DNA from: Rhizomicrobium sp.
GTDB taxonomy: Bacteria > Pseudomonadota > Alphaproteobacteria > Micropepsales > Micropepsaceae
Length of the DNA: 64,000 nucleotides
Direction of reading: 5' to 3'
Assembly (NCBI GenBank): GCA_037200385.1
Contig: JBBCGL010000001.1
Coordinates: 1,240,001 to 1,304,000 of the forward strand
The translations under genes and the position numbers were made by a program. Positions 5,486 to 56,348 of this stretch are shown in pieces. The notes under the pieces are model-generated. The model was not told where the DNA came from and made no database searches. It was given only the letters and a program-made list of their open reading frames with translations. Numbering within the stretch: the stretch's first letter is position 1; each line of letters begins with the position of its first letter.

Positions 5486-6118
5486 ATGCCGTCCAGCCGT
5501 CGCTCCCGCAAGCGCCTCGCCACGCGGCAAGCCATCTCCGACGCCGCCACGCTCCTCTTCATCGCGCGCGGCTTCGATCGCGTGACGGTGGACGAGATCG
5601 CGGCAGCCGCCGACGTCGGGCGGATGACGGTGTTCAATCACTTTCCCCGCAAGGAGGACATGTTCTTTGATCGCGACGAAGAGGGACGCGAGATACTGCG
5701 CGAAGCCTTGCGGCAGCGTGATCCGCAGGTCGCACCGATCGAGACATACCGTCTGCTCGCGCATCGGCTGATTGCGGAACAGAGCCCTGCCGTCGAATTT
5801 TCCGCCAGGAGCCAAAGCTTCATAGAGACGATCGAGGCCAGCGAGCCCCTCAAGGCTCGGGCCAGAGCAATACGAGACGAGCTGGCGCATGTCGTCACGG
5901 TGGCGCTGGCCGAATGCGTAGGGCGAAAGCCGGATGATCCCCTCGCCCACCTCGCGGCCGACCTGCTCTTGGCGACGTGGGCCGTGGCCTTCATCCAGGC
6001 TCACAGGACCTTTCGCCGGAGTCGCAATACAGGGGAAGCGAACGCTGTCTTTCTCGCGATTGTCGACACGGGAACCGTCGGCCTAAAAGCTGCGATGGCG
6101 GGAACGCCCTACGCTTGA
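5486..6118 (+). CDS. TetR/AcrR family transcriptional regulator
   Basis: This 210-residue repressor has an N-terminal helix-turn-helix: TRQAISDAATLLFIARGF, then VTVDEIAAAADVGRMTVFNHFPRKEDMF (about residues 13-58), followed by a helical ligand-binding domain. The ATG at 5486 is preferred over an earlier one at 5393, because the earlier start would run translation through the operator and GAGGAGGGA lies just upstream of 5486. It is divergent from the oxidoreductase and MFS genes and probably represses them and itself. Confidence 0.9.
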   Translation: MPSSRRSRKRLATRQAISDAATLLFIARGFDRVTVDEIAAAADVGRMTVFNHFPRKEDMFFDRDEEGREILREALRQRDPQVAPIETYRLLAHRLIAEQSPAVEFSARSQSFIETIEASEPLKARARAIRDELAHVVTVALAECVGRKPDDPLAHLAADLLLATWAVAFIQAHRTFRRSRNTGEANAVFLAIVDTGTVGLKAAMAGTPYA

Positions 6119-14432: not shown

Positions 14433-14458
14433 AACGCGCTTTGCGTCACAATTGTTCC
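14433..14458 (-). promoter_or_regulatory. EcfG-type general-stress promoter upstream of hpf
   Basis: On the minus strand GGAAC (14458-14454) is followed after exactly 17 bases by CGTT (14436-14433). This matches the alphaproteobacterial EcfG consensus GGAAC-N16/17-CGTT in every defined base. The hpf ATG is 23 bases downstream of the -10 element, a sensible leader length. HPF is a stationary-phase/stress protein, which fits. Confidence 0.75.
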
Positions 14459-38205: not shown

Positions 38206-39887
38206 GGTGCCGACCGACCGCGCAGGAGCGCGGCGAGGTTGGCGCGCGCCACGGGACCTGCCAGCGTGTCGCCGGGCGGCAGGCGGCGGCGCCAGTTGGG
38301 GTGCTCGTCGATCGTGCCCGGAATATTGGGCTGCTCGATCACACCCACCACGTCTTCGACGGGCACGATCGCGATCTCGCACGGCGTGCGGCCGACGAAG
38401 GCGAGCGCCGCCTCGACGACGCGCTCGGTGTCCTCCGGCGCCGGCTCCGGCCCCTGGCCGATCGCCGACCACAGATAGGCGCGATCCTCGCCGCGTGCCC
38501 AGCGCTCCGCGGCGATGTCGCCGTGCTCGGATCTGCGGCCCAGCGTCTCCAGCCAGTCGATGTCGCGGCCGCGCCACCAGCCGGCGATGGTGGGAAGGTC
38601 GTGCGTGGTGGAGAGCGCCGCGGCCCGCGCCGACCAACGTTCCGGCGCAAGGAAGCGGCGGCCTTCGCGCTGGAACCACAGCACCTCCATGCCCAGCATG
38701 TCCGCGCCGCGCATCGCGTCGCGAAAGCCGTCCGGCACCGTGCCCAGGTCTTCACCGATCACGATGGCGCGATGGCGCCGCGAGTGCTCCGCCAGCAACG
38801 CCAGCAGCGCCCGCATCGGATAGTGCAGATAGACGCCGTCCTGCGGGCCGGCACCGTCGGGGATCACCCAGAGCCGGTTGAGGCCCATCGCATGGTCGAT
38901 CCGCACGCCGCCGGCATGGCGCATCGCGGCGTCCCAGGTGTCGGCAAAGGCCGCGCGCGGCGCCGCCGGCGACAGCGCGGTGAGGCCCCAGTTCTGGCCC
39001 TGCGGATTGAAGATGTCGGGCGGGGCGCCGATGGTGAGGCCGCGCAGGACATCGCCCGGCGCGCTCCAGGCGTGGCTGCCATGCGGGCTCATGCCGACGG
39101 CGATATCGGCGATCAGGCCGATGCGCATCCCCGCGTCGCGCGCCGCGGCTTGCGCGTCCGCCAGGCTGCGTTCCGTCAACGTCTGGAGAAAAACGTAGAA
39201 CTCGACGTCGTCACGATGTTCGCGCGCGAACGTTTCGACCGCGGCACTACGCGGATCGCGGTAGGCGATCGGCCAGTCCTGCCAGCGATACAGGCCCTGT
39301 TCGCGGAAATGCGCGTCGAGCGCCTCGAACCGGGCGTGATCGCGCAGCCGCCCGTCTGCTGGCGCCGATGGCGCGCGTGCGAAAGCGACGCGCAGCCGCG
39401 CGAGCTTCGCGCGCGCCGCCGCCGGCCAGTCGACCAGGCCGTCGCGTCCGTCGTCCGGCACGTCTTCCGCGGCGTAGAGCGGATTGAGGAACAGCCGGCT
39501 CGACGGCGAATAGGGGCTGATCTCGTCGAGCGCGGCGAGGAACGGCGCATGGATCGGGCTGACCGCGATCGCGTCGATGCCGAGAGGCGCCGCCTCGCGG
39601 GCAAAGCGCGCCAGCGCGCCGAGATCGCCGAAGCCGTCGCTGCCGCGCAGCGCGTAGAGCTGGGCCGCCAGGCCCGCCACGCGCCGCCCCGGCGCGGCTT
39701 CGCCAAGCGAAAAGCATTGCTCGGCGCTGCCTGGCTGCTCATCGCCCATCTCGTAGCCGCCCAGGGCATCGAGCACGGTGCGCAGGGTGTCCGGGGACAC
39801 GGTCTTCGGATGCCCCGACGCGTCGATCCAATCCGGTGCCAGGCCGGCCTTGCGCGCGCGGTCGTACAGGGCGGCGTCGCTCATCAT
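38202..39887 (-). CDS. malQ: 4-alpha-glucanotransferase (amylomaltase)
   Basis: A 561-residue GH77 enzyme that transfers glucan segments between chains, recycling short malto-oligosaccharides. Visible are SPIHAPFLAALDEISPYSPSSR, VRIDHAMGLNRLWVIP with the nucleophile Asp, VIGEDLGTVPDGFR with the catalytic Glu, and TTHDLPTIAGWW. It overlaps treZ (start) and treY (stop) by ATGA. Confidence 0.94.
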   Translation of the reverse strand: MMSDAALYDRARKAGLAPDWIDASGHPKTVSPDTLRTVLDALGGYEMGDEQPGSAEQCFSLGEAAPGRRVAGLAAQLYALRGSDGFGDLGALARFAREAAPLGIDAIAVSPIHAPFLAALDEISPYSPSSRLFLNPLYAAEDVPDDGRDGLVDWPAAARAKLARLRVAFARAPSAPADGRLRDHARFEALDAHFREQGLYRWQDWPIAYRDPRSAAVETFAREHRDDVEFYVFLQTLTERSLADAQAAARDAGMRIGLIADIAVGMSPHGSHAWSAPGDVLRGLTIGAPPDIFNPQGQNWGLTALSPAAPRAAFADTWDAAMRHAGGVRIDHAMGLNRLWVIPDGAGPQDGVYLHYPMRALLALLAEHSRRHRAIVIGEDLGTVPDGFRDAMRGADMLGMEVLWFQREGRRFLAPERWSARAAALSTTHDLPTIAGWWRGRDIDWLETLGRRSEHGDIAAERWARGEDRAYLWSAIGQGPEPAPEDTERVVEAALAFVGRTPCEIAIVPVEDVVGVIEQPNIPGTIDEHPNWRRRLPPGDTLAGPVARANLAALLRGRSAP

Positions 39888-41491
39888 GGCTCGATCCAGC
39901 AGCGCGTTCCGGCGCTGTCCCAGATGGGGGTTGCGGATGGGAGCGGACAGGACACCGTCTCGCGGCCGAGATTGACCAGGATGGTCAGCCGCGCGCCGTC
40001 GCCCAGGCGCCAGGCGGCGCGCACCGCTTTCGGTCCCACGACCTCGGCGCCTTCCGCCGTACAGCCCTTGAGTCGCGGCACGATCCGCGCGCGGCGCAGC
40101 TCGAGCAGATCCTTATAGAACATGTGCCATTCGGTGCCACCGTCGAGGCGCGGCCGCGCACGCTCGAAGGTATCCGGCGCGTTGGGATCGGGGATTTGCG
40201 CGCGCCTGGCGGGATCGCGGAATTCGGGGAATTTGGCGAACTCGCCGCGGCGGCCTTCGCGCACGGCATCGGCGAGCTTGCCGTCCGCGTGATCGCAGAA
40301 ATAGAGGAACGGATCGCGCGCGCCCGTCTCCTCGCCGAAGAAGAGCAGCGGGATCGGCGGCGCAAGCAGCAGCAAGCCGATGGCGGCCTTCAGCGCCGTC
40401 TCATCCGCCAGCACCGTCAAGCGCTCGCCGAACGCGCGGTTTCCGACATGGTCGTGGTTCTGCAGGAAATTCACGAAGGCGGTGGGAGGAAGCTGCGGAC
40501 CCGGTCCGCTGCGCTCCTGGATGAACCGGCCGGCGAGCGAGGTCGCCAGACCTTGCACGGGCGCCGCCGCATAGGCGCTGTAATATCCCTCGCTCTCCCC
40601 GGTCAGCAGCACATGGACGGCGTGATGGAAATCGTCGTTCCATTGCGCGATGCCGGCCTCGGCCAGCAGCTTCGCGTCGTTGCGCTCGTTCTCGACAACG
40701 ACATGGACATGGCGGCCGGGCGCCGCGGCACGCACGGTGCGCGCCAGCTCCGCGATGAAACCGTCGTCGCCGATGGCGTGCACGGCATCGAGCCTGAGCC
40801 CGTCGATATGGAATTCGCGCACCCAATAAAGCGCATTGTCGATGAAGAAGCGCCGCACCGGTTCCTTGCGGAAGTCGATGCCCGCACCCCAGGGCGTGTG
40901 GCGATCCTCGCGGAAGAAATCCGGCGCATGGACCGGCAGGTAATTCCCGTCCGGTCCGAAATGGTTGTAGACCACGTCGAGGAACACCATCAGGCCGAGC
41001 GCATGGGCGCGGTCGATCATCTGCTTCAGCGCGTCCGGAGTGCCGTAGGCCCGCGCGGGCGCATAGGGCAGCACGCCGTCATAGCCCCAATTGCGCGTGC
41101 CCGGAAAATGCGCGATCGGCATCAGCTCGACCGCGGTGATGCCGAGCTCGGCGAGCCTGGGCAGATGCGCTTCGATGCCTGTGAACCCGCCCATCAGGCC
41201 GGCATGCAGCTCGTAGAGGACGGTCTCCTCCCATGGCCGGCCGCGCCACGCGTCGTCCCGCCAGCGATAGGCGCCGGGATCGGTGACGACACTCCACTCG
41301 CCGTCCTGCAAGCGCGACGCTGGATCGGGCACGGTCGCATCGCCGATCCGGAAGCGATAGCGCGCGCCCGGCGAAAGCTGTGCGTCGGTCTCATGCCAGC
41401 CGTCCGACGCCGGCGCCATCGGTATCGTCCGTCCAGCGAGTTCGAGATCGACATGCGCACAGGCCGGCGCCCAGAGCCGGACGCGTGTCAT
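39884..41491 (-). CDS. treZ: Malto-oligosyltrehalose trehalohydrolase
   Basis: A 535-residue GH13 enzyme releasing trehalose from the TreY product. It has the TreZ N-terminal beta domain (VRLWAPACAHVDLEL), VYNHFGPDGNYL, GLRLDAVHAI (nucleophile), VVENERND (acid/base) and NFLQNHDHVGNRAFGERL. The ATG at 41491 overlaps the glgX stop; in-frame sequence upstream of it matches nothing. Confidence 0.95.
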   Translation of the reverse strand: MTRVRLWAPACAHVDLELAGRTIPMAPASDGWHETDAQLSPGARYRFRIGDATVPDPASRLQDGEWSVVTDPGAYRWRDDAWRGRPWEETVLYELHAGLMGGFTGIEAHLPRLAELGITAVELMPIAHFPGTRNWGYDGVLPYAPARAYGTPDALKQMIDRAHALGLMVFLDVVYNHFGPDGNYLPVHAPDFFREDRHTPWGAGIDFRKEPVRRFFIDNALYWVREFHIDGLRLDAVHAIGDDGFIAELARTVRAAAPGRHVHVVVENERNDAKLLAEAGIAQWNDDFHHAVHVLLTGESEGYYSAYAAAPVQGLATSLAGRFIQERSGPGPQLPPTAFVNFLQNHDHVGNRAFGERLTVLADETALKAAIGLLLLAPPIPLLFFGEETGARDPFLYFCDHADGKLADAVREGRRGEFAKFPEFRDPARRAQIPDPNAPDTFERARPRLDGGTEWHMFYKDLLELRRARIVPRLKGCTAEGAEVVGPKAVRAAWRLGDGARLTILVNLGRETVSCPLPSATPIWDSAGTRCWIEP

Positions 41492-43539
41492 GACGGCGTC
41501 TCCAGCAGCGCCGCGACCATCACACAGGCATGACTTTCGACCTTGCAGGATTTCCCGCCGCATGCGCCCGGCTCGCGGTCGGGCGCGGCGCCGTCGAAGA
41601 CCACGCGCCAGTCAAACGCCTCCGGCAGCGCGAATTCGAGCGCATCCTCCGAACCGTTCATCAGAAGCGCGATGATCTCGACCTTGCCGTCGGCGCGCCG
41701 CGACGTGCGGCGCATCACGAGCGCGCGGCCTTCCGGATTCTGCCAATCCTCGTCGGACAGGATTTCGCCGCGCTCGTCGAGCCAATCCAGATCGCGGAAG
41801 CCCGGCGCGATCTCCTGCCCATGGCGGAAGCGGTCCTCGCGGAGGCCGGCGAATTCGCGGCGCAGCGCGATGAGGCGCGCCGTCCAGGCGATCAGCGCCG
41901 CGTCGGCCGCGGACCAGTCCAGCCAGGAGATCTCGTCGTCCTGGCAATAGGCGTTGTTGTTGCCCTTCTGCGTGCGGCCGAGCTCGTCGCCGGCGAGCAG
42001 CATCGGCACGCCGCGCGACCAGAACAGCGTGGCGAGCAGCGAGCGGCGCATCCGCGCGCGCATCTCATTGACCTGCGGATCGTCGCTCGGCCCCTCCACG
42101 CCCCAGTTGCGCGAGAGATTGTCCGATATGCCGTCGCGGTTCTCCTCCCCATTGGCCTCATTGTGCTTGCCCTCGTACAGGGTGAGATCCGCCAGCGGCG
42201 CACCGTCATGGCTGGCGATATAGTTGATCGACGCCGACGGCCGGCGCAGCGCGAAGAAGTCGGAGGAGCCGGAAAGCCGCTCCGCCAGATCGGGCCGCTG
42301 GTCTGGGTCGCCGCGCCAATAGCGGCGCACCGTATCGCGATAGCGGTCGTTCCACTCCGAGAAGCCGGGCGGGTGATTGCCGAGCTGATAGCCGCCGGGT
42401 CCGATGTCCCACGGCTCCGAGATCAGCTTGACGCCGGCGAGCGCCGGATCCTGGCGCAGCGCATCGAAGAAGCCGCAGCCGGGATCGAAGCCGGAATGTT
42501 CGCGGCCGAGCGTGGCGCCGAGATCAAAGCGAAAGCCGTCGACGTGGAACGACTGTACGAAATAACGCAGCGAATCCATCACCATCTGCGCGACGCGGGC
42601 ATGGGACATATTCACGGTGTTGCCGGTGCCGGTGTCGTTCACCGTCCGGCGACGGTCTTCGTCGGGCAGCCGGTAATAGCTCGCGTGATCGAAACCGCGC
42701 CAGGACAGCGTCGGACCGAGCTCGCTGCCCTCACAAGTGTGGTTGTAGACGACGTCGAGGATGACCTCGATGCCGGCCTTGTGCAGCGCGCGGATCGCGG
42801 TGCGAAGCTCGTCCGCCGTGCCGTAGCGCGGCTCCGGCGTGAAGAACGAGAGCGTGTTGTAGCCCCAGTAATTGCTCAAGCCTTTCTCGACCAGAGTGCG
42901 ATCCTGCGCGAAGGCGTGGATGGGCAGTAGCTCGATCGCGGTGACGCCGAGCCGGCGCAGATGGTCGACCACCGGCGCGGCTCCGAGCGCCGCATAGGTC
43001 CCGCGCGCGGCTTCCGGCACGGCGCCCAGCAGCTTGGTCAGGCCTTTGACATGGGCCTCATAGATCACCGTATCGGCCCAGCCGATGCGCGGCGGGCGGT
43101 CGTCGCCCCAGTCGAATGTTTCCTTCGTCACGAGGGCTTTCGGCATGAAGGCCGCGCTGTCGCGTTCATCGAACGTAAGATCGGCATCCTCGCCGCCGGG
43201 CGCATAGCCCAGCAGCGTATCGTCCCACTTCACTGCGCCGGACAGCGCCTTGGCATAAGGATCGAGCAGAAGCTTGTTGGGATTGAAGCGGTGGCCGTTC
43301 TCCGGCTCGTAAGGACCGTGGACGCGATAGCCGTAGGCCACCCCCGGCGCGGCGCCCGGAAGATAGCCGTGCCAAACCTCGTCGATATGGCCGGGCAGCG
43401 ACATGCGCGTCTCGCCGCCGTCCTTGTCGAACACGCAGAGCTCGACCTTCGCGGCATGAGCCGAGAAGACGGCGAAGTTCACGCCGCGTCCGTCATGGGT
43501 GGCGCCGAGCGGGTAAGGCAGTCCAAGTTCCAGTTTCAT
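41488..43539 (-). CDS. glgX: Glycogen debranching enzyme (isoamylase type)
   Basis: A 683-residue GH13 enzyme with an N-terminal CBM48 ([20 protein letters not shown]). It hydrolyses alpha-1,6 branches. Motifs are [26 protein letters not shown] (nucleophile), [16 protein letters not shown] (acid/base) and [12 protein letters not shown]. In this cluster its linear products would feed TreY. It overlaps glgB and treZ by ATGA. Confidence 0.95.
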
Positions 43540-45656
43540 CCAAGTACCAATGTTGCGAGCGGCGGCAGGGTGAGTATCAACGCGCCATCGCGGGCTTCGG
43601 CCTGTCCGCCATTGCCGACATTGCTGCCGCCGTAGATCTGCGAGTCCGTGTTGAGGAGCTCGTGCCACGTGCCGTCGTGCGATACGGGAATGCGGTAATC
43701 GTAGCGCGGTACCGGCGTCATGTTGACGACGACGAGCAGCGTGCGCCCATCGGGCGCGATGCGCTCATAGGCGAAGACGCTGTTCGCGCTGTCGTCGCCG
43801 ACGGCCCAGCGGAAGCCCTTCGGATCGCCGTCCAGGGCGTGGAGCGCGGGTTCGCGCGCATAGATCCGGTTCAGGTCACCGACGACGCGCTGGACGCCGG
43901 CATGTCCGTCATCCTTGAGCAGGTCCCAATCGACCTCTCCGTCGTGATCCCATTCGCGCGGGCTTGCGATCTCGCCGCCCATGAAGAGCAGCTTGCGTCC
44001 GGGATGCGTCCACAAGAACGCGAAATAAGCACGCAACGTCGCCAACTTCTGCCAGACATCGCCCGGCACGCGGCCGTACAACGAACCTTTGCCGTGGACC
44101 ACCTCGTCATGCGAGAGCGGCAGGACGAAACGCTCGGACCAGGCATAGACAAGGCCGAAGGTCATGTCGTGGTGATGCCAGCGGCGATGCACCGGCTCGT
44201 AAGAGAGGTACGACAACGTATCGTGCATCCAGCCCATGTTCCACTTGTAGGAAAAGCCCAGCCCGTCCGGCGCGGTCACGCCCGGCCAGGCCGTCGACTC
44301 TTCCGCGATCGTGATCGCTCCGGGATGGCGCTCGCGCACCAGCGCGTTCAGGCGCTTGAGGAAGTCGACGGCCTCGAGATTCTCGCGCCCGCCGTAGCGG
44401 TTGGGGATCCACTCGCCGGGCTTGCGCGAATAGTCGCGGTAGAGCATCGACGCCACCGCATCGACGCGCAGGCCGTCGACATGGAAATGCTCGAGCCAGA
44501 ACAGCGCGCTCGCGGTGAGAAAGCCCTGCACCTCGCGGCGGCCGAGATTGTAGATGAGGGTGTTCCAGTCCTTGTGGAAGCCCTCGCGCGGATCGGCGTG
44601 CTCGTAGAGCGCGGTGCCGTCGAAATGCGCAAGGCCGTGCGCGTCGGAGGGGAAATGCGCCGGCACCCAGTCGAGGATCACGCCGAGGCCGGCGCGGTGG
44701 CAGGCATCGACAAAGCCCGCGAACCCCTCCGCCGTGCCGAAGCGCGCGCTCGGCGCGAATTGCGACAACGGCTGATAGCCCCAGGAGCCGCCGAAGGGAT
44801 GTTCCATGATCGGCAGCAGCTCGACATGGGTGAAGCCGAGCGACGTGACATAAGGGATGAGATGCTCGGCCAAGCCGCGCCAATCCATCGTCTCGCCATG
44901 CTCGGGCCGCAGCCAGGACGCGGCATGGACCTCGTAGATCGAGATCGGCGCCTCCGGCGCCTGCGCGGCGGCGCGCCGCTCCAGCCAGTCGCCGTCCGTC
45001 CAATGGAAGCGCCAGGGCGCGGCGACGACGGACGCATTCGCAGGCGGATGCTCGGTGGCACGCGCCAGGGGATCCGCCTTGAGCGGGAGCAGCGCGCCGT
45101 CCGGGCCGGCGATCTCGTATTTGTAGCGCTCGCCCGCCATCAGGCGCGGCACGAAGATCTCCCACACGCCGGCGCCGTGCCGCAGCCGCATCGGATGGCG
45201 CCGTCCGTCCCAGCCGTTGAAATCGCCGACCACCGAGACGCGCCGCGCGTTCGGCGCCCATACCGCGAAGCGCACGCCCTCCACGCCGTCGATCACGTCC
45301 ACCGCGGCGCCGAAGCGCTCCGACAGCTCCCAATGCGAACCTTCGGAGAAAAGATGCAGATCGACATCGCCCAGGATCGGCGCAAAAGCATAAGGGTCTT
45401 CCGCTTCCTGGACCGTGCCTTGCCAGTGAACGCGAAGCTTGTACGGCCGCACGCCGCGGCCGACGAACACGCCAGTGCTTCCCACCGGCAAGAGCGCCGC
45501 GACGTCCTCGCCGCAGACGATCTCGACACGCAAGGCCCCCGGCTGGAAACTGCGCACGATGCCGTCATGGGGACCGAGGAACGCGAAGGGATCGGGGTGG
45601 CGCCCATCCGCCACCATCAGCGCCTGGGCGATCTCCTGGCCGTCCTGCATGTTCAT
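43536..45656 (-). CDS. glgB: 1,4-alpha-glucan branching enzyme
   Basis: A 706-residue GH13 enzyme making alpha-1,6 branches. It has two N-terminal beta domains, including CBM48 [25 protein letters not shown], then [42 protein letters not shown] (nucleophile), [11 protein letters not shown] (acid/base) and [18 protein letters not shown] 45656 gives a 4-nt overlap with treS. In the GlgE pathway GlgB branches the GlgE product. Confidence 0.96.
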
Positions 45657-48600
45657 AGCGCCGCCGCCAGTCCGGTAAAGCCCGCCGCAGGAAGGTCGAT
45701 CCAATCCGGGCGGTTGTTGGCTTCATACACGATCTCGTAAGCTGCCTTCTCGAGCGCGAAGACGGCAAGCAGCTTCGCCTCGCGCGCGTCCAGCGGACGG
45801 CCGCGGCCTTTCGCATAGCCTTCCAGGAAGGCGTCGCGCGCGACGCGGCCGAATTCCGCGAGCAGCGTCTTGGCGCGATCCGCGCTCTGGCTGGTGTTGA
45901 CCAGCCGGTCGTTGCGCGCGACCACGCCGCCGACATAGTCGAAGGACCGCAGCATCCCGGCCACATCGCGCAAAGGAGAGTTCTTGGCGCGGCGCTCGGC
46001 CAGCGGCTTGGCCGGCTCGCCCTCGAAGTCGATGATGACCGCGTCGCCCGCCGCCACGAGGACCTGGCCGAGATGCAGGTCGCCATGTATGCGCGTGAGC
46101 GGCAACCCTTCGCCTGCGGCCAAGGCTCCTTCCGCCGCCGCGTCCAGCGCCTTGCGGTCGCCGAGGTCGCGCAGCGCAAAAGCGGCGTCGAGTTGCGCGC
46201 GCAGGCGCGTCCGCCAGGACGCGATCGTTTCGGCGGTGGCCTTCTCCGGCGCGAAATCGGGATCGTCCGAAGGCTGCGCGAGCACTTCGTGCATCTCGCC
46301 CAGCCGGCGGCCGGCAACCGCGATGAAATTGCGATAGGCTTCCAGATCGTTGCCGCTCTCGCCGTCAGTCACCGCCTTGTCGTCGATCAGGCGGCCGACC
46401 TGTTCCAGCGACCACTGAAAGGCATCGCCCTGGTTCTCGACGAAGCGCTGCACCACCGCGGCGGCAGCGTCCTTGTAGCGCACCTCGCCCATGAGCGAAG
46501 CGATGCCGGTGAAGCCGCGTTCGGTCAGCACGCGCACCATCTCCGCCTCGGGATGGACGCCGTCGACGAGGCGGCGGAACAGCTTTATCACGGCGCGGCG
46601 GCCGACGATCAGCGTCGAGTTGCTCTGTTCGGCGCCCGGCCATTCGATCTCCGCGTCCGGCGCGATATCGGCGAAGGCTGGCGCGCGGCTGCAGGTGAGA
46701 GCGCCTGGTCCGCAGCCCTCGGATAGCCCGCGCAGGAGGGCGCGCGCGAACTTCGCCGTCGCGAAACCGTCGGTCAGAAGACCGATCTTCGCGCCGCGCC
46801 GCACGCGCCCCAGGGCGAGCGCCGCCTCGAACGGGTTCGACGGCGCGTCCTCCCAGGCGATCGCGAGCGGCAGCGCATAGTGCTCGCCGTTCACGTCGAG
46901 GACGCCGAAGAGGAGCTCCTTGTCGAAGTCCCGCGTGTCCGCGATCCGGACCGCGGGCACGCCGGTGCTCTTGGCTTGGTACCAACGCCGCTGCGCGACA
47001 TAGGCCGGCAGCACTTCCTTCTCCAGGACATTGCGCTGCCGCCCGTCGATGATGTCGTTCAAGCCGTTGCGGATGATGAAGGTGTGATATTCCGCGATGT
47101 TGTCGGACGTGGCCGTGCTCCACGCCGGCTGGTTGGTCTCGGCGCTCAACGAAAACCAGTAGAACCCGAAAGGCTGGAGCGTGAGCAGATAGGTGAGCTG
47201 GCCGATCTTCGGGAACGCCACCTCGCCCGACAGCTCGACCGGCGTGCGGCCGGCGAATTCGCCGAGATCGAGCTCGACCGCCTGCGCCGTACGCGACACA
47301 TTGGCGACGCAGAGGACGGTCTCGCCCTCGAACTCGCGCAGATAGACGAGCACCTTGCGGTTCTGCGGCCGCAGGAAACGGATCGTGCCGCGGCCGAACG
47401 CCTTCCAGCGGCCGCGCACCACCAGCATGCGGCGCACCCAGTTGAGCAGCGAATAGGGGCTGCGCCACTGGGCCTCCACGTTCACGGCTTCGAAGCCGTA
47501 GATCGGGTCCATGATCGGCGGCAGCACCAGCGACGCCGGATCGGCGCGCGAGAAGCCGCCATTGCGGTCGGGCGACCATTGCATGGGCGTGCGCACCCCG
47601 TCGCGGTCGCCCAGATGGATGTTGTCCCCCATGCCGATCTCGTCGCCGTAGTAGAGGATCGGCGTTCCCATGATGGTGAGCAGCAGCGAGTTCATCAGCT
47701 CGATGCGCCGCCTGTCGTGTTCGAGCAGCGGCGCGAGCCGGCGCCGGATGCCGAGATTGAGGCGCGCCCGCTTGTCGGCGGCATAGGTCTTCCAGAGATA
47801 GTCGCGCTCCTTGTCGGTGACCATCTCCAGAGTCAGCTCGTCGTGGTTGCGCAGGAAGGTCGCCCATTGGCAATTCGCAGGCGCATCCGGCGTCTGGCGC
47901 ATGATGTCCATGATGGGGAAGCGGTCTTCCTGCGCGATCGCCATGTACATCCGCGGCATCAGCGGGAAGTGGAACAGCATGTGGCATTCGTCGCCGTCGC
48001 CGAAATAGGCCTGGACGTCCTCCGGCCACTGGTTGGCCTCGGCGAGCAGCATGCGGCCGGGATAATGGACGTCGACCTCGGCGCGGAAGCGCTTCAAGAC
48101 GGCGTGCGTCTCCGGCAAGTTCTCGTTGTTGGTGCCTTCGCGCTCCACCAGATAGGGCACCGCGTCGAGGCGCAGCCCGTCGACACCGATGTCGAGCCAG
48201 AAGCGCATCACGGAAAGCGCTTCGGCGATCACGGCGGGATTGTCGAAATTGAGATCGGGCTGGTGCGAATAGAAGCGGTGCCAGTAATAGGCCTGCGCCC
48301 CGTCATCCCAGGTCCAGTTCGACTTCTCGGTGTCCAGGAAAATGATGCGCGTGCCCGCATAGCGCTTGTCGCTATCCGACCAGACGTAGAAATCGCGCTC
48401 CGGCGAGCCTGGCGGCGCCTTGCGGGCGCGCTGGAACCAGGGGTGCTGGTCGGAGGTGTGGTTCAGCACCAGTTCGGTGATGATGCGCATGCCCTTGGCA
48501 TGCGCCAGTTCGATGAAGCGACGCACGTCGTCGATCGTGCCATAGTCGGGATGGACGCCGCGATAATCGGCGATGTCGTAGCCGTCGTCGCGCCGCGGCG

Positions 48601-48829
48601 AGGGATAGAACGGCAGCAGCCAGATCGCGGTGACGCCGAGCTCGGCCAGATAGTCGAGCTTGCCGATCAGGCCCGCGAAATCGCCCACGCCGTCATTGTT
48701 GGCATCGGCGAACGATTTGACGTGGAGCTGGTAGATGACCGCGTCCTTGTACCAGAGCGGATCGTGCGCGCGCTCCTCCTGGATCGTCTCGGCATCGCGG
48801 GGGAGATGCAGATCTTCGCGGACGTTCAT
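45653..48829 (-). CDS. treS: Trehalose synthase-maltokinase fusion (TreS-Mak)
   Basis: A 1058-residue bifunctional protein. Residues 1 to about 560 are TreS, which interconverts trehalose and maltose: [44 protein letters not shown] (nucleophile), [12 protein letters not shown] (acid/base) and [13 protein letters not shown]. Residues from about 590 are a maltokinase forming maltose-1-phosphate, with [15 protein letters not shown] and the kinase motif [10 protein letters not shown] with IIDFEGEP near residue 915. Fusion couples trehalose to GlgE substrate supply. It overlaps glgE and glgB by ATGA. Confidence 0.96.
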
Positions 48830-51708
48830 CGCTGGTCCTCCGCCGGGCAGACGCGCCACAGACGATACGGCGCGTCCGGCTCCAGGCGTAGATGCTGGAG
48901 CTTGCCGCGCCAGGTGAAATGGCGGCCGCTGAGCAAGTCTTCGACGAACAGCGCTCCGCCGTCCGGCAGTCCCCATTCCCAAAGCGGAATCTCGAAATCG
49001 CAGTCCTGCGGGGCGTGCGGATCGAGGCTGACGGCGACGAGGATGGTCTCGCCGGGGACGTGCTTGCCGTAATAGAGGACGTTCGGATTGAAGGCGTTGT
49101 AGAACGTGACGCCCAGATGCGTCTGCAGCGCAGGATGCGCCTTGCGCAGCCGGTTGAGGACCCCGATCTCCGCGACGATGTTCCCCGGCGCGTTCCAGGT
49201 GCGCGGCTTGATCTCGTATTTCTCCGAGTCGAGATATTCCTCGCGCCCCGGCAATGCGGCGGCTTCGCAGAGTTCGAAGCCCGAGTAGATGCCCCACAGG
49301 CCCGACAGCGTGGCCGCCAGCGCAGCGCGGATGAGGAAGCCGGGGCGGCCCGAGGTCTGCAGGAAATAGGGATCGATGTCCGGCGTGTTGACGAAGAAGT
49401 GCGGGCGGAAGAGATCGCGCGCCGGCGCCGCGTTAAGCTCGCGAAGATATTCCGTGAGCTCGTCCTTGGTGTTGCGCCAAGTGAAGTAGGTGTAGGACTG
49501 GGTGAAGCCGATCCTCGCCAGGTGATACATGACCTTCGGTCGCGTGAACGCTTCGGCGAGGAAGATCACGTCCGGGTCGCTTGCCCGGACGCTCGCGATC
49601 AGCCATTGCCAGAACGCGAACGGCTTGGTGTGCGGGTTATCGACCCGGAAGATGCGCACGCCCTCCCCCGCCCAGAATCCGACGATGTCGCGCAGCGCGG
49701 TCCAAAGGCCGGGAACCGCGTCCTTGGCGTAGAAGTCGACATTGACGATGTCCTCGTAAAGCTTGGGCGGGTTCTCGGCATATTTGATCGAACCGTCCGC
49801 GCGCCAATCGAACCAGCCGGGATGCTCCTCGAGCCAGGGATGATCCGGCGAGCACTGCACCGCGAAGTCGAGCGCGATCTCCAGCCCCTCCGCGCGCGCC
49901 GCGGCGATCAGGGCGCGGAAATCGTCGAGCGTCCCGAGCTGGGGATGAACCGCGTCGTGGCCGCCCTCCGCCGCGCCGATCGCGTAGACGCTGCCGGGAT
50001 CGCCCGGCCCCGGCCGCAGGGTGTTGTTGCGGCCCTTGCGGTTGGTCCGCCCGATCGGATGGATCGGCGGCATATAGAGCACGTCGAACCCCATGGCGCG
50101 GATGGCGGGCAGTCTCGCGATCACGTCGCGGAACGTGCCATGTCGCCCAGGGTCGTCCGTCAGCGAGCGCGGAAACAGCTCGTACCAGCTTGCGAAGCCG
50201 GCACCGGCGCGGTCGGCGTCTATCGGATAGCTCGGACTGCGGCTGAGGAAGCGCCGGTCCTCCAGCCGATGCATCGCTTCGATCGTTTCCGGCGCCAGCA
50301 ATATCGCGGGATCGCCGGCGGACACGCCGAGCACCTCGCGCACCATCGCGTCGCCTTCGCGGACGTCGAGCGCGATATCGCGGCCGGCCTCCTGCTTCCG
50401 GGCAAGATCGCGCACGAAGCCGCCATAGCGATCGATCCAGGCCTCGATGAAGACGTCATGACGTCCGACGCGGTCGAGCAGGAGCGATGCGCGCCAGCGA
50501 TCGTTTCCGATGGGCTGCATCGCAATGCGCCGTTCGCCATGGACGAGCTCCGCCGCGATCAGGGGATGACCGTCGGCGAATATGTCCGCCTCGACCACCA
50601 CTGCGTCGCCCACGATCCGCTTGACGGTAAATCGACCATCGCCCAAGGCGGGCGTGACGTCGGCGATGACGATCCTGGGCTCTTCCGCGCCGAGCTTTGG
50701 CGGCACGGCGCGGAGCGGAGCGCGGCGATCGACGCGCAAAAGGCGAACCTCATGCGGCGCCAGCACCGTCGCCGGCGGGATATCCCAGTCCTCGAGCGCG
50801 ATCGGAGCCGGCGATACGGTGTCGCCGGGATTGACGAGCGCGATCAGCGCGCTGCGCGCGAGGCGGGCATCGGGCTCCGCCGTGCGGACCAGGGCGTTGC
50901 CGTGACGCGCCAGCATGCCACGCGCCGCAATGACCGGATCGGATGCCACGAGCGCATTCGTCGCTCCGATGCAATCGTCGATGTCTTCGTCGGTCGCGAA
51001 TTCGGCCGGCATCCAGATGCCCGAACCCGCCACGGCGGCCACGGCATAGCGTGCCCGCCGCTCGCGGAGTCCAGCCGGGATCCCCTCCACGCCGACCCGC
51101 GCCAAGACCGGCGCGATGCGCGACGCCGCCTGATACTCCTCCTCCAGCCAAGCCGCGCGAAAATCCCACCACGCGAGCGACGACAGGCAATAGTCGAAAC
51201 CGCATCCCGCCAGTCCGGCGAGCGCCTCGCGCGCGAGCCCCGCGATGTCGGCGACGAAGACGATGGACGGCGCGTTCGACCGCAGTTCGGCAATCAACTG
51301 ACGCAGCAGCGCCGGCGGCACGCGTCCCGGCTGGCGGAGCCTGAACCCGCACACGCCTTGCGAGGCGAGCTGCACCAGCCGATCGCGCCAATACGCTCCG
51401 AATCCGTCGCATGCGGCATAGAAGCGTGCGACGGCCCGCCCTTGCAGTTGGACGAGGTGACGCGGATCGATCGCGCGAGCCGGATCCGCAGAGGGTCGGA
51501 CGGCGAACCAATCGGGATGTGCCTCGACCAGCGGATCGTCGGACGGCAATTCCGCCAGGTCGACATTCGCCAACACCTTCAACCCACTCTTCGGCCATGG
51601 CGACCCATGATTGCTCGCGAGATGGTCGAAGCCGAGCGCGCTAGCGCGTGCCGCGGCGGCGGAGTCCACAGCAGCCGCTCCGAGGTCACAAATCCGCGGT
51701 GGCGACAT
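48826..51708 (-). CDS. glgE: Alpha-1,4-glucan:maltose-1-phosphate maltosyltransferase with extra N-terminal domain
   Basis: A 960-residue GH13_3 enzyme extending alpha-glucan with maltosyl units. Residues from about 345 form the standard GlgE: a beta domain ([21 protein letters not shown]), [26 protein letters not shown] with nucleophile Asp near residue 685, FLAEAFTRP with acid/base Glu, and TYFTWRNTK. Residues 1-340 are an added region that looks like a degenerate GH13 barrel (GFRLRQP where GFRLD is expected). The ATG at 51708 is chosen because it lies 41 bases downstream of an exact EcfG promoter. First gene of the seven-gene operon. Confidence 0.94.
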
Positions 51709-51748
51709 CGGCAAGGCCCCGGTTGCACGTAAAATTCGACATGGACGC

Positions 51749-51774
51749 AACGTGGTTGCAGCGCAAAAAGTTCC
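51749..51774 (-). promoter_or_regulatory. EcfG-type general-stress promoter of the glgE operon
   Basis: On the minus strand GGAAC (51774-51770) is followed by 17 bases and CGTT (51752-51749), an exact match to the alphaproteobacterial EcfG consensus. The glgE ATG is 41 bases beyond the -10 element. The -35 GGAAC is one half of palindrome GTTCCCCGGAAC, shared with the divergent mscS side. Confidence 0.78.
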
Positions 51775-51776
51775 CC

Positions 51777-51802
51777 GGAACCCATTGGATCGCCGCGGCT
51801 TT
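51777..51802 (+). promoter_or_regulatory. Divergent EcfG-like promoter candidate for mscS-otsB
   Basis: GGAAC (51777-51781), 17 bases, then CTTT (51799-51802), one mismatch from CGTT. It uses the other half of GTTCCCCGGAAC (51770-51781), 36 bases before the mscS ATG. The match is weaker than on the glgE side. Confidence 0.45.
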
Positions 51803-51837
51803 ATGCCTGGAAGGGGAAAGCGGCAAGACGAGGATCG

Positions 51838-52941
51838 ATGACCGACAACAGACTCCTGCTCGACCTGTTCCCCTGGGCGCCGCGGCCCCTGATCGTCCTT
51901 GCGCTGGTCGTCGCGGCGATCGCGCTGGCGGTCGCCGTGCACGCTCTGCTATGGGCGCTGTTCAAGCGCTTCTTCGGGGCGCGCTACCCGTTCGTGCACG
52001 AAATCGTCGGCCGTACGAGCGGCATCAGCCGCTTCGCCTTCATCATGATCGCGTTCAGCATGGCCGTGTCCATCGCGCCGCTGCATCCGCGCGTCGCCGA
52101 CGACGCCAACCGTGCGCTCTTGGCGGCGTTCATCGTATTCCTGGGCTGGCTGGCGATCGTCGGCGTCAATCTGGCGATCGACCGCTATGTCGGACGCTTC
52201 AAGCTCGACGTTTCCGACAATCTTCTTGCCCGCAAGGCCGTGACGCAGATGCGCCTGCTCAAGCGCGCGCTGGATTCGGTGATGGTGGTGGTCACGGTCG
52301 CCTTCGCGCTGATGTCCTTCGACTCCGTGCGCGAGTTCGGCGTCAGCCTGTTCGCCTCGGCCGGCGTCGCGGGCATCGCGGCGGGGTTGGCCGCGCGGCC
52401 GGTCCTCGAGAACCTGCTGGCGGGCGTCCAGCTCGCCATCACCCAGCCGATCCGGCTGGACGATGTGCTCATCGTCGAGGGCGAATACGGAACGGTCGAG
52501 GAGATCACCTCGACCTATGTGGTTCTCAAGCTGTGGGATTGGCGCCGGATGATCGTGCCGCTCAGCTATTTCTTCGAGAAGCCCTTCCAGAACTGGACCA
52601 GGGCCTCCGCCTCGCTCATCGGCACGGTGATGGTCTATGCCGATTACACCGTGCCTGTCGAGCAGGTCCGCCGCAAGCTCGAAGAGATCGTCAAGGAGTC
52701 CAAATTGTGGGACGGCCAAGTCGTGAACCTCCAAGTCAACGACGCCAGGGACAATGTGATCGAGCTGCGTGCGCTGGTGAGCGCCCACGACTCTCCGACG
52801 GTGGCCGATCTTCGGGCGGAGGTGCGCGAAAAGCTGATCGGCTATCTCCAGAAGGAGCTTCCCTGGGCCTTGCCGACCTCGCGCCAGCGCTCGATCGCCG
52901 AAGGCGACACGCGGCCCCAGCGCCGGGCCGTGGGCGCATGA
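51838..52941 (+). CDS. mscS: Small-conductance mechanosensitive channel (MscS family)
   Basis: A 367-residue membrane channel. About four hydrophobic segments lead into the pore helix [21 protein letters not shown] with alternating Gly/Ala as in MscS TM3. The beta domain follows ([39 protein letters not shown]). MscS relatives release solutes on hypo-osmotic shock. It overlaps otsB by ATGA, tying turgor release to trehalose metabolism. The symbol denotes the family, not a proven orthologue. Confidence 0.9.
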
Positions 52942-53717
52942 CCTCCCTGCCGGCACTCGACCTCGATCGCACCGCGTTGTTCCTCGATATCGACGGCACG
53001 TTGCTGGATATCGCGCTGACGCCGGAGTCCGTCCGCGTGCCGCATATGCTGGTGGACGACCTTGCACGGCTTCGCGCGCGCTGCGACGGCGCGCTGGCAC
53101 TCGTAAGCGGACGGACGCTGGAGGACATCGACAGGTTGTTCGCGCCGCTCAGGCTTCCCGCGGCCGGCGCGCACGGCACGCAAGTCCGGCCCGACCCCAA
53201 CGCACCGATCGGTCATCTCACGCGTCCCATTCCGGCCGAATTGCGCGCCGAATTCGCGGCGCTCGCCGACCGCCCGGGCATGTTCATCGAAGACAAGGAA
53301 GTCACGCTCGCATTGCATTATCGCCTGCTCGTGGACGCGACGCTGCCGGCTGCGCGGGTCGCCGAGGTCGAGGCCGCGGCGGCACGGGCCGGTTTTTCTC
53401 TCCTGCATGGCAAGAAGGTCCTGGAGCTCAAACCTGCGGGCACCGACAAGGGCACCGCGCTGCGCACCTTCATGACCAAGCCGCCCTTCGCGGGTCGCGT
53501 GCCGCTGTTCGCCGGTGACGACGTGACCGACGGCTATGCCTTCGCGGTGCTGGAAAGCCTCGGCGGCCTCGGAATCTCGGTAGGACGCCCGTTCCCGGGC
53601 GCGGCCTATCAGGCCGCCGACCCCGAGGCGCTCCGCCAATGGCTGCATGGGCTGCTCGAACCGCAAGCCAACAAGCCAAAGGAACCTAGCACGACCGCGT
53701 TCGTTGATCGTCCATGA
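52938..53717 (+). CDS. otsB: Trehalose-6-phosphate phosphatase
   Basis: A 259-residue HAD-superfamily phosphatase. LFLDIDGTLLDIALTP holds the nucleophile DxD, ALVSGRTLEDID the second motif, KPAGTDKGTALR the conserved Lys, and FAGDDVTDGYAF the Mg-binding acidic pair. It dephosphorylates trehalose-6-phosphate. Its usual partner otsA is not in the window. It overlaps mscS and the ROK gene by 4 nt each. Confidence 0.93.
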   Translation: MTSLPALDLDRTALFLDIDGTLLDIALTPESVRVPHMLVDDLARLRARCDGALALVSGRTLEDIDRLFAPLRLPAAGAHGTQVRPDPNAPIGHLTRPIPAELRAEFAALADRPGMFIEDKEVTLALHYRLLVDATLPAARVAEVEAAAARAGFSLLHGKKVLELKPAGTDKGTALRTFMTKPPFAGRVPLFAGDDVTDGYAFAVLESLGGLGISVGRPFPGAAYQAADPEALRQWLHGLLEPQANKPKEPSTTAFVDRP

Positions 53718-54793
53718 GCGAGGGCGGGACCGCGAAGGCACCTCTGTTGTGTGGACATGGAAGCCTGCGGCTCCCCAAAGTCGACATCGTCTCCTACAAC
53801 ATCGAGCTCAAGGACAGTGGCGGATTTCTCGGCGACCGCGCGAGCAAGAAGGCCCTGGCGGCCATTCTCGACAAAGCCCGCAAACCTCTGATCAAGGAAG
53901 GCCGCGACCCGTTCGGCGAACGGCCGAGCACCGAGATCGGAAAAAAAGAGCTCGACAAGGCCTTGGAGACGGGCGACGCCGAAACAGCAGGCCTGGTCCA
54001 TACCATCGTCGAAGACTTCTCGCAGGACTTCGCGTTCGTCGTGCGGCGGCTGCTCAAGGACAAGAGCTGGCAGGACGTCGAGCGGATCGCCGTCGGCGGC
54101 GGAATGCGCGGCCACCGCATCGGCGAGCTGGCCATCGGCCGGCTCTCCGCCCTCCTCAAGGCCGAAAAGATCGACGTCGAGATCGTACCCATCGACAGCG
54201 ATCCGGACGATGCCGGACTCTTGGGCGCCGTCCAGCTCGCGCCCGAATGGGTCTTCAAGGGCCATAACGCCCTCGTCGCAGTGGATATCGGCGGCACCAA
54301 TATGCGTGTCGGCCTCGTCGCGTTCGACTTGAAGAAGGCGCCCGGCTTCGGCGACGCCGCCGTGACGGAACGCGAGATCTGGTGCCATGCCGACGACGAC
54401 GTCACGCGCGACGCCGCGGTGGGCTCGCTCGTGGAGATGATCGGCGACATCATCCGGCGCGCGGAAAAGGCCCAGCTCAGGCTGGCGCCCTTCATCGGCA
54501 TCGGCTGCCCGGGCATCATCGAGCCGGACGGCTCGATCGATCGCGGGACACAGAACCTGCCGGGCAATTGGGCCAGCGCGCGTTTCAACCTTCCTCAGCG
54601 CATCGTCGAGGCGATACCGCTCATCGGCGAGGACGACACGCAGGTGGCACTTCACAACGATGCCGTCGTGCAAGGGTTGAGCGAAACGGCAACCATGACG
54701 GATGTGCAACGGTGGGGAATCCTCACCTTGGGCACTGGTCTGGGCAATGCCTCTTTTGTGAACCGCAAGCCGCACAAAACGAAGGCAAAGTAG
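53714..54793 (+). CDS. ROK-type sugar kinase with apparently circularly permuted halves
   Basis: A 359-residue protein of the ROK/glucokinase superfamily with motifs out of the usual order. Residues 80-180 look like a ROK C-terminus: ALETGDAETAGLV, ERIAVGGGMRG and DPDDAGLLGAVQLAP, which normally ends the protein. Only then, at residues 190-200, comes the N-terminal phosphate motif VDIGGTNMRVG, followed by IGIGCPGIIEPDGSI, catalytic HNDAVVQGLSE (about residue 316) and GTGLGNA (340-346) close to the end. The Cys-rich zinc motif is absent; CGHG at residues 13-16 may be its remnant. Probably phosphorylates glucose or a related sugar; it overlaps otsB and precedes glgA. Confidence 0.82.
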   Translation: MSEGGTAKAPLLCGHGSLRLPKVDIVSYNIELKDSGGFLGDRASKKALAAILDKARKPLIKEGRDPFGERPSTEIGKKELDKALETGDAETAGLVHTIVEDFSQDFAFVVRRLLKDKSWQDVERIAVGGGMRGHRIGELAIGRLSALLKAEKIDVEIVPIDSDPDDAGLLGAVQLAPEWVFKGHNALVAVDIGGTNMRVGLVAFDLKKAPGFGDAAVTEREIWCHADDDVTRDAAVGSLVEMIGDIIRRAEKAQLRLAPFIGIGCPGIIEPDGSIDRGTQNLPGNWASARFNLPQRIVEAIPLIGEDDTQVALHNDAVVQGLSETATMTDVQRWGILTLGTGLGNASFVNRKPHKTKAK

Positions 54794-54935
54794 CGCCCGT
54801 CAACCTGTCTCCACCTCGGCTGCGACAACTTACTCCGTTCGATTCAATACCAGGGCAGCTGTTTCGCGCTCCAGCGGATGAACGGTTGGCGAGACCGCGC
54901 GTTTTGCACTGCGGAACCAAAGTTGCTTGGAAACC

Positions 54936-56348
54936 ATGCGCGTTCTTTTCGCCACGCCGGAGATGGAAGACTTCATAAGCGTCGGAGGCCTTGCTGCCGT
55001 ATCCGCGGCGCTGCCGCGTGCTTTGGCGCCGTTCGGCGAGGTCCGTGTGATCATTCCCGGCTACCGCGAGGTGCTCCGCCATCTTGCCCCTTTGGAGATC
55101 ATAGCGACATGCCGCGAAAGCGCCGGGCTTCCCGCCTGCACGCTCGGGCTAGCCAAGACCGCGGACGGCCTGCCGGTCTATGCGGTGATCTGTCCTGAAT
55201 TGTACGAACGCGACGGCGGCCCCTACGGCGACGCTCAGCAACGCGACTGGCCCGACAACGACATCCGGTTCGCCCGTTTTGCGTCGGCGGCCGCCCAACT
55301 TGCGTCGGGACTGCTCGACCCGCACTGGCGGCCGGATGTTGTCCACTGCAATGATTGGCAATCGGCGCTGATCCCCGCCTACCTGGCGTGGAGCGGCGCG
55401 GATGTCCCCACCGTGCTGACCATCCACAATCTGGCCTATCAGGGATTGTTCGACCGCACCGCCGCGCGCCGGATCGGCGCGCCGGAGAGCGCGTTCCACA
55501 TCGACGGCCTGGAATTCTACGGCAAGACCTCGTTCCTGAAGGCCGGCCTGATCTACGCCACGCATCTCACCACGGTGAGCGCGACCTATGCCCGCGAGAT
55601 CACGACGCCCGAACATGGCTGCGGCCTGGAAGGCCTGCTGCGGCGCAGAGCGGACGCCCGGCAGCTGAGCGGGATCCTGAACGGCATCGACGAGAGCTGG
55701 GATCCGCGTACCTGTCCGGCGCTGGCGGCGCCTTTCGCGGTCGGCGAATGGGATGGGAAGACCGTCAATGCCGATCACGTGCGCAAGGAATTCGGATTGG
55801 CGCTGTCGCGCGGTCCGCTTTTCGGCCTGGTGGCACGACTCGTCCATCAAAAGGGCGTGGACCTTGTCCTCGCGGCGGCGGATACGATCGTCAAGGCCGG
55901 CGGCCAGATCATCGTTACCGGCAAGGGCGAGACCGAGTTCGAAGAAGCCCTGAAAGACGTCGAGCGTCGCAACCCCGACAGCATCGCCGCCGCGATCCGC
56001 TTCGACGATGGCGAGGCGCGGCGCATTTTCGCCGGCAGCGATTTCACCTTGATGCCGTCGCGGTTCGAGCCCTGTGGCCTCAGCCAGATGTATGCGCAGC
56101 GCTTCGGCTCGCTGCCCATCGGACGCCAGACCGGCGGACTTTCGGAGACCATTGTCGACGGCGAGACCGGCTTCCTGTTCTCGGAGCCTTCGACGGAATC
56201 CCTGCTCGAGGGGATCTCCCGGGCCTTCGCGACCTTTCGGACGAAGGAACGCCTGAACCGGATGCGCGAGCGGGCGATGTCCCAGCCCTTCGGCTGGCAG
56301 CATTCGGCGCGAAACTATGGGCAGATTTACGAGAGCGTGGCCGCCTAA
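54936..56348 (+). CDS. glgA: Glycogen synthase-like glucosyltransferase (GT5)
   Basis: A 470-residue GT5 enzyme. MRVLFATPEMEDF opens the N-terminal Rossmann domain; VVHCNDWQSALIPAYL and TIHNLAYQGLF are typical. The C-terminal domain has LVARLVHQKGVDLVLAA (Arg and Lys of the active site) and MPSRFEPCGLSQMYAQRFGSLPI. The ADP-glucose-binding KTGG motif reads SVGG (ISVGGLAAVSAALP), so its Lys is missing. ATG 54936 is preferred over an in-frame TTG at 54927. It starts 142 nt after the ROK gene; no glgC is in the window. Confidence 0.9.
   Translation: MRVLFATPEMEDFISVGGLAAVSAALPRALAPFGEVRVIIPGYREVLRHLAPLEIIATCRESAGLPACTLGLAKTADGLPVYAVICPELYERDGGPYGDAQQRDWPDNDIRFARFASAAAQLASGLLDPHWRPDVVHCNDWQSALIPAYLAWSGADVPTVLTIHNLAYQGLFDRTAARRIGAPESAFHIDGLEFYGKTSFLKAGLIYATHLTTVSATYAREITTPEHGCGLEGLLRRRADARQLSGILNGIDESWDPRTCPALAAPFAVGEWDGKTVNADHVRKEFGLALSRGPLFGLVARLVHQKGVDLVLAAADTIVKAGGQIIVTGKGETEFEEALKDVERRNPDSIAAAIRFDDGEARRIFAGSDFTLMPSRFEPCGLSQMYAQRFGSLPIGRQTGGLSETIVDGETGFLFSEPSTESLLEGISRAFATFRTKERLNRMRERAMSQPFGWQHSARNYGQIYESVAA

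Follow-up and report, generated by a model that had tools for sequence, protein, structure and literature searches.

The open reading frame at 53714-54793 of the window, by which we mean the whole stretch of 64,000 nucleotides of Rhizomicrobium sp. DNA that was analysed, carries the C-terminal half of a ROK-type kinase first and the N-terminal half second. Its product, here called cpROK, is a permuted variant of a known fold, real and conserved, and not a canonical ROK member. The reading that we favour, and consider quite probable, is that of a permuted, conserved protein of the ROK/hexokinase (ASKHA) fold under the control of EcfG, most likely an ATP-dependent hexokinase; the same fold also includes Hsp70 and actin.

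Permuted order of the ROK lobes

The gene and its elements lie in the window as follows.

53714..54793 (+): cpROK, circularly permuted ROK-type kinase, 359 aa (ORF, Pfam, profile alignment, AlphaFold)
53756..53761 (+): H15-G16, invariant or nearly so
53822..53845 (+): GFLGDRAS, residues 37-44, conserved
53912..54247 (+): equivalent of the ROK C-terminal lobe, residues 67-178 (ROK 193-297; profile alignment, Foldseek)
54095..54103 (+): GGG, residues 128-130, C-terminal ROK element, invariant in the alignments
54200..54229 (+): DPDDAGLLGA, residues 163-172, last element of ordinary ROK proteins
54275..54772 (+): equivalent of the ROK N-terminal lobe, residues 188-353 (ROK 2-143; Pfam, profile alignment)
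54284..54301 (+): DIGGTN, residues 191-196, first element of ordinary ROK proteins
54653..54661 (+): HND, residues 314-316, with D316 aligned to the Asp of the ROK ND motif
54731..54751 (+): GTGLGNA, residues 340-346, with the chain end shortly beyond

The DxGGT, catalytic ND, GTGxG, GGG and DxAGLxGA elements are all present in cpROK, and the motifs quoted in the initial annotation could be located in the 359-residue frame where it had placed them. The tail lobe stands ahead of the head lobe, the reverse of the ordinary ROK order (head, then tail). We take D316 to be the catalytic residue, and GTGLGNA is presumably the ATP phosphate loop. The Pfam ROK model (PF00480) matches residues 188-355 only, at profile positions 2-146 of 294, with a score above the gathering threshold (35.7 bits against a cut-off of 22.9), and a ROK match at E<=1 was obtained for 15 of the 16 homologues in alignment A1.

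Profile-profile comparison accounted for the other half. When a family profile of 30 cpROK members was aligned by hhalign with one that represents ordinary ROK proteins of the same class (25, out of 30 loci), residues 67-178 aligned to ROK 193-297 with the first half alone (E 2.3e-8) and residues 188-353 to ROK 2-143 with the second half alone (E 9.3e-9), while the reordered columns gave a single alignment of 286 columns (E 2.2e-14). Moving the cut round the chain raised the score against the same ROK profile from 59.8 in the native order to a maximum of 105.8 at residue 180, with 104.8 at 184 and 105.1 at 188. The true first half scored 59.3, against 16.2 for the reversed first half and 21.6 for the best of 20 column shuffles; judged by the re-cut scores beside these controls, the permutation signal lies far beyond chance. 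The natural circular permutation of a ROK-type kinase claimed in the initial annotation is thus borne out by a score of about 60 in the native order and about 105 after re-cutting at 180-188, and the reordered alignment that it had proposed as a check came out as one alignment.

Less sensitive comparisons gave a weaker signal for the tail lobe. Against a smaller ROK profile, built from 6 other proteins, the second half aligned at E 1e-17 and the first half weakly at E 0.012, and the reordered alignment covered 293 columns. In Pfam searches with four single reordered proteins, three had a best stretch that ended between profile positions 143 and 148 of 294, and one of these three had a second stretch whose place was not shown in the output; the fourth had no ROK match. 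The reordered profile matched two ROK-type chains among PDB sequences (E 0.002 and 0.009), with the tail stretch near 0 bits, and the native-order and first-half profiles gave weak or no matches there, none significant for the first half. Because these single-sequence Pfam and PDB-sequence results are weak, only profile-profile comparison and structure show the second lobe clearly.

AlphaFold2, run with 40 sequences, modelled the whole chain with a mean pLDDT of 86.7 and a pTM of 0.86. The eight best Foldseek matches of this model in the PDB were the two-unit human hexokinases I and II, with 402-433 alignment columns against a 359-residue query and an rmsd of about 30-37 A, an excess of columns that would be expected if the two halves of the modelled cpROK fell on neighbouring hexokinase units. 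The next matches were single-unit ROK and glucokinase structures, with TM-scores of only about 0.3-0.4. The first half modelled alone (residues 1-183) reached a pLDDT of 70.9, below the whole-chain model, and its twelve best PDB matches were all ROK-type (Foldseek; E 3.7e-3 for the best, and thus above 0.001 for all): six carry ROK in the title, and the other six (ManNAc/GlcNAc kinases and an Enterococcus glucokinase) we take to be ROK-type. Residues 1-183 alone therefore match ROK-type structures best, so that the outcome named in the initial annotation as refuting it, a fold in which residues 1-185 do not form the C-terminal ROK lobe, did not arise.

Circular permutations usually arise when a gene is duplicated and fused to its copy and the outer halves are then lost. 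In cpROK, the old C-terminus (LLGAVQLAPEW) would have been joined to the old N-terminus (ALVAVDIGGTN) through a short linker, and the new termini would have been opened after the GTGLGNA hairpin, beside the usual site of the ExGH loop and the zinc motif. The aligned members have the same termini, which suggests that the permutation was one event.

Spread of the family and its gene neighbours

Where cpROK genes are annotated, they are labelled 'ROK family protein' or 'glucokinase'. The gene was present in 5 of 61 relatives, counting the window genome itself, and a search of 385 class genomes gave matches in 17, the one in G231 being an ordinary ROK protein. Plasmids also carry it, with matches in 206 plasmid records (111 Rhizobium, 79 Sinorhizobium), and among contigs of one genome per species, at least 373 of at least 595 pattern-matching stretches encode a relative at E<=1e-3; motif order was scored in the best 80 of these. 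The phylum search detected the full-length form in 22 of 398 genomes, including five from other classes, two of which (G601 and G442) carry a stop, and the remaining 30 of the 52 positive genomes matched the head half alone.

The initial annotation had called for a search for homologues with the same order, and 122 of 126 distinct homologues share it (tail, DxGGxN, HND, GTGLGNA). They come from 131 loci, made up of the 80 best contig loci, 10 plasmid regions and the genome-search loci, which do not form a random sample. Any other order occurred in 0 of 126, and the four exceptions lacked a motif, two of them through an in-frame stop. By motif, HND was retained in 125, DxGGxN in 124 and GTGLGNA in 123. 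The window gene differs from its counterpart in G028 by 87 silent and 35 non-silent codons. Three loci from class genomes (L013, L015, L017) and two from the phylum search (L162, L163) have one in-frame stop each, and these are either decaying copies or sequencing errors. G610 and G594 (family f171) contain two full-length copies each, with an additional short fragment in G594.

In the window, mscS, otsB, cpROK and glgA follow one another on the + strand, and glgE, treS-maltokinase, glgB, glgX, treZ, malQ and treY lie on the - strand.

35800..45704 (-): treY, malQ, treZ, glgX, glgB (treZ and glgX named only from amylase/CBM48-type domains and gene order)
45653..49297 (-): treS fused to a putative maltokinase, start uncertain
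48826..51942 (-): glgE, start uncertain
51749..51774 (-): second perfect EcfG-type motif, pointing to glgE and the glucan genes
51838..52941 (+): MscS-type mechanosensitive channel gene (mscS), overlapping otsB
52938..53717 (+): otsB, trehalose-6-phosphate phosphatase
53681..53705 (+): EcfG-type promoter motif GGAAC-N16-CGTT, inside the otsB 3' end
54927..56348 (+): glgA, glycogen synthase

As the initial annotation had described, the kinase gene overlaps otsB and precedes glgA; its ATG overlaps the otsB stop codon (ATGA, 53714-53717), and the frame is open. Directly before cpROK, otsB also occurs in G028, G008 and L022. In G013, mscS and otsB are followed by an otsA-like gene and then by cpROK, with an overlap between these two; the otsA-like product scores 544.9 bits, below the OtsA model cut-off of 564.85. 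Among the 10 plasmid regions, otsB is divergent from and adjacent to cpROK on four Rhizobium plasmids and one Shinella plasmid; on the Rhizobium plasmids of L132, L135 and L138, the pair lies within a few kb of repABC. In the window's genus and on these five plasmids otsB or otsA adjoins cpROK, but cpROK is not tied in general to a glucan/trehalose locus, of which the initial annotation had suggested that it may be a dedicated enzyme. At the 50 loci titled Bradyrhizobium, otsB was found in none within the flanks examined, and cpROK is accompanied by an L21-type ribosomal gene at 42, a GNAT gene at 48 and an obgE-type gene at 41, names which we assigned from their sequences. A tblastn search with ten window neighbours in flanks of up to 8 kb at 82 loci recovered glgA, glgE and mscS at one locus each, treS at two and otsB at four, two of these several kb off, so that the idea of a glycogen-locus enzyme of general validity was given up.

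The locus L073, in a record titled Frankia sp. RB7, has cpROK in the gene order typical of the Bradyrhizobium loci and is probably mislabelled or contaminated. A ferritin-like gene occurs at three cpROK loci, an MscS gene adjoins the copy in G238 (L019), and in Sinorhizobium medicae a gene annotated as part of the NAGGN osmoprotectant system lies beside a copy. Across genomes, otsB (PF02358) was present in 15 of the 16 class genomes with cpROK, G385 being the one without it, against 84 of 369 lacking cpROK (Fisher p 8e-9, uncorrected for genome size or kinship); within the genus, its presence in 4 of 4 cpROK genomes and 19 of 33 others does not discriminate. The wider link of cpROK looks like the general stress response.

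Promoter motif, active site and probable function

A perfect GGAAC-N16-CGTT motif ends 8 nt before the cpROK ATG, which makes a leaderless transcript, or one with a very short leader, likely. The exact pattern GGAAC-N15-18-YGTT occurred in 23 of 126 distinct 350-nt upstream regions, against 4 of 126 antisense and 63 of 5039 random windows. When at least 8 of 9 letters had to match in the stretch from -160 to -40 relative to the H15 codon, the motif was present upstream of 93 of the 126 genes, compared with 2 of 126 for the opposite strand and 3 of 126 for a control region lying further upstream. Reduced to 30 lineages of less than 70% identity, 19 had the motif (other strand 0, further upstream 1) and it fell below 8 of 9 letters in 11, four of which belong to other classes. 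There was no genome-wide enrichment, with 79 sites against 92 for the backwards pattern. The window holds three perfect motifs, with 0.8 expected, and 6 of 100 shuffles reached three.

The genome encodes PhyR and NepR in one place with an ECF sigma factor, which is called EcfG from its position beside PhyR/NepR, and nepR is preceded by a perfect motif. cpROK would be transcribed from a general-stress promoter of the PhyR-NepR-EcfG system by EcfG. The perfect motif facing glgE suggests that the glucan/trehalose genes from glgE to treY may also be under general-stress control. The third perfect motif of the window lies at 14433-14458 (-), and a near match with 8 of 9 letters at 51777-51802 (+) faces mscS. 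In L176, the G013 locus, perfect motifs lie before the otsA-like gene and cpROK (2054-2078, +), beside mscS on the other strand (141-165, -) and downstream (5815-5840, +).

GGAAC-N16-CGTT is the consensus reported for EcfG1 of Rhizobium etli (PMC3892343), and the putative EcfG sites of Sphingomonas melonis include GCAAC variants (PMC6599016). The motif of cpROK is that of the EcfG/RpoE2 regulons of Alphaproteobacteria (PMC3892343, PMC6599016, PMC6180224), and MscS channels and a trehalose/GlgX cluster are EcfG-dependent in S. melonis (PMC6599016), as the window locus would be. The main texts of PMC6599016 and PMC6180224 contain neither 'ROK' nor 'glucokinase', and that of PMC3892343 does not contain 'ROK'; as a candidate promoter, the EcfG motif upstream of cpROK and most of its homologues is new here.

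The active site is less conventional. The ExGH sugar-binding loop and the zinc motif CxCGxxGCxE, which we regard as hallmarks of the ROK family, follow GTGxG in the ordinary ROK proteins inspected, and each was found in 0 of 126 distinct homologues, at least two of which are shortened by a stop. The earlier statement that all core pieces are present once fails for these two. At this place in the order, the cpROK chain ends soon after the GTGLGNA hairpin, and its start carries an HG-xxx-LP segment and then GFxGDxAS. Of two reordered profile alignments, one places H15 on the histidine of the ROK GH motif and GDRAS (of GFLGDRAS) near the ROK zinc cysteines, and the other does neither, so that the two disagree on whether GFxGDxAS is the equivalent of ExGH or takes the position of the zinc motif. 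E31 (in NxE) was considered as a hexokinase-like sugar Glu and dropped; N29 and E31 vary in distant homologues. Since ExGH is missing, ROK-like glucose binding by cpROK is doubtful, and since the whole ExGH/zinc region is missing, we infer rather than observe that cpROK is a sugar kinase.

On the favoured reading of a stress-controlled hexokinase, cpROK would catalyse ATP-dependent sugar phosphorylation. In the folded protein, ATP-Mg and a small substrate would be enclosed between the two lobes, and D316 would act as the base. Glucose may be that substrate, at somewhat short of an even chance; free glucose from MalQ or trehalose breakdown would then be converted to glucose 6-phosphate, the substrate of OtsA, with a role in osmotic or desiccation stress. 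Perhaps cpROK supplies glucose 6-phosphate for trehalose synthesis in this way.

Some ROK proteins are repressors, and a permuted ROK-fold protein that does not phosphorylate sugars, whether regulator or pseudokinase, is an unlikely alternative. It would fit the absence of ExGH and the zinc motif from the homologues and the many copies without a sugar-pathway neighbour among the genes tested. Nevertheless, the ATP and catalytic elements DxGGTN, HND and GTGLGNA, which a pseudokinase would be expected to lose, are nearly invariant, and no DNA-binding domain stood out in Pfam, where one member had a TetR C-terminal match at E 0.1. There is a similarly small probability that the permuted kinase acts not on glucose but on some different substrate, such as trehalose or a further compatible solute, and that OtsB reverses the phosphorylation. 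The altered sugar loop, the recurring adjacency of otsB and the copy beside the NAGGN-annotated gene of S. medicae agree with such a substrate, but trehalose phosphate is probably already made in G013, given the otsA-like gene that overlaps cpROK there.

The readings that deny the permutation or the gene fare far worse than these. An unrelated N-terminal domain before a truncated ROK head, as the Pfam match to the head half and the first-half profile without a significant PDB-sequence match might suggest, is very improbable and was rejected on the strength of the profile alignment, the cut scan with its controls, the ROK-type matches of the first-half model and the single confident model of the whole chain. 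The idea that the gene is dead in the window genome, or an artefact of assembly or annotation, has practically no probability left: although some homologues carry one in-frame stop, the window gene is intact, silent changes dominate against G028, and conservation refutes it, with 13 of 16 full-length class matches and 20 of 22 phylum-search genomes free of stops.

Comparison with known systems

Natural circular permutations of whole enzymes are, to our knowledge, uncommon, and a search of open-licence PMC papers turned up none in a ROK protein, a hexokinase or any other ASKHA kinase. We tentatively suggest, with the chances leaning against it, that cpROK is the first case of natural circular permutation to be recognised in the ROK/hexokinase fold and founds a family of stress-induced kinases, in which the ROK substrate site would have been replaced by the opening at the sugar/zinc loop, leading to a new substrate or regulation in osmoprotectant metabolism. 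The chain was opened at the very place of the lost sugar/zinc loop, so that the permutation could be tested jointly with a change of function. The family is widespread, with relatives of the same arrangement in many bacteria of soil and plants, and a domain search sees only half of the protein; the promoter link would place it in the general stress response.

With the ROK glucokinases and ManNAc kinases (PF00480; PDB 3vgk, 2qm1, 2yhy), cpROK shares the ASKHA fold and the DxGGT, ND, GTGxG, GGG and DxAGLxGA elements, but its order is permuted and it has neither ExGH nor CxCGxxGCxE. The tandem forms of the eukaryotic hexokinases (PF00349), such as human hexokinase I (1dgk), are its best structural matches, and 13 of 16 members match PF00349 weakly at E<=1 (residues 187-245 in the window protein); cpROK differs from them in being permuted, and it does not reach the PF00349 threshold (12.9 bits against 24.3). 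The fold of ADP-dependent glucokinase is ribokinase-like. ADP-dependent glucokinase and a ribokinase-type kinase are related by a segment swap, with ATP/ADP-site residues drawn from non-sequential parts (PMC2213659), and permuted topologies are allowed within kinase fold groups in general (PMC1079889), but the fold of that pair is not the ROK/ASKHA fold of cpROK. The GH70 glucansucrases, compared with GH13, offer a parallel for a whole catalytic domain that is naturally permuted and keeps its catalytic motifs, as in cpROK (PMC11046441), although they are TIM-barrel glycoside hydrolases and cpROK is kinase-like.
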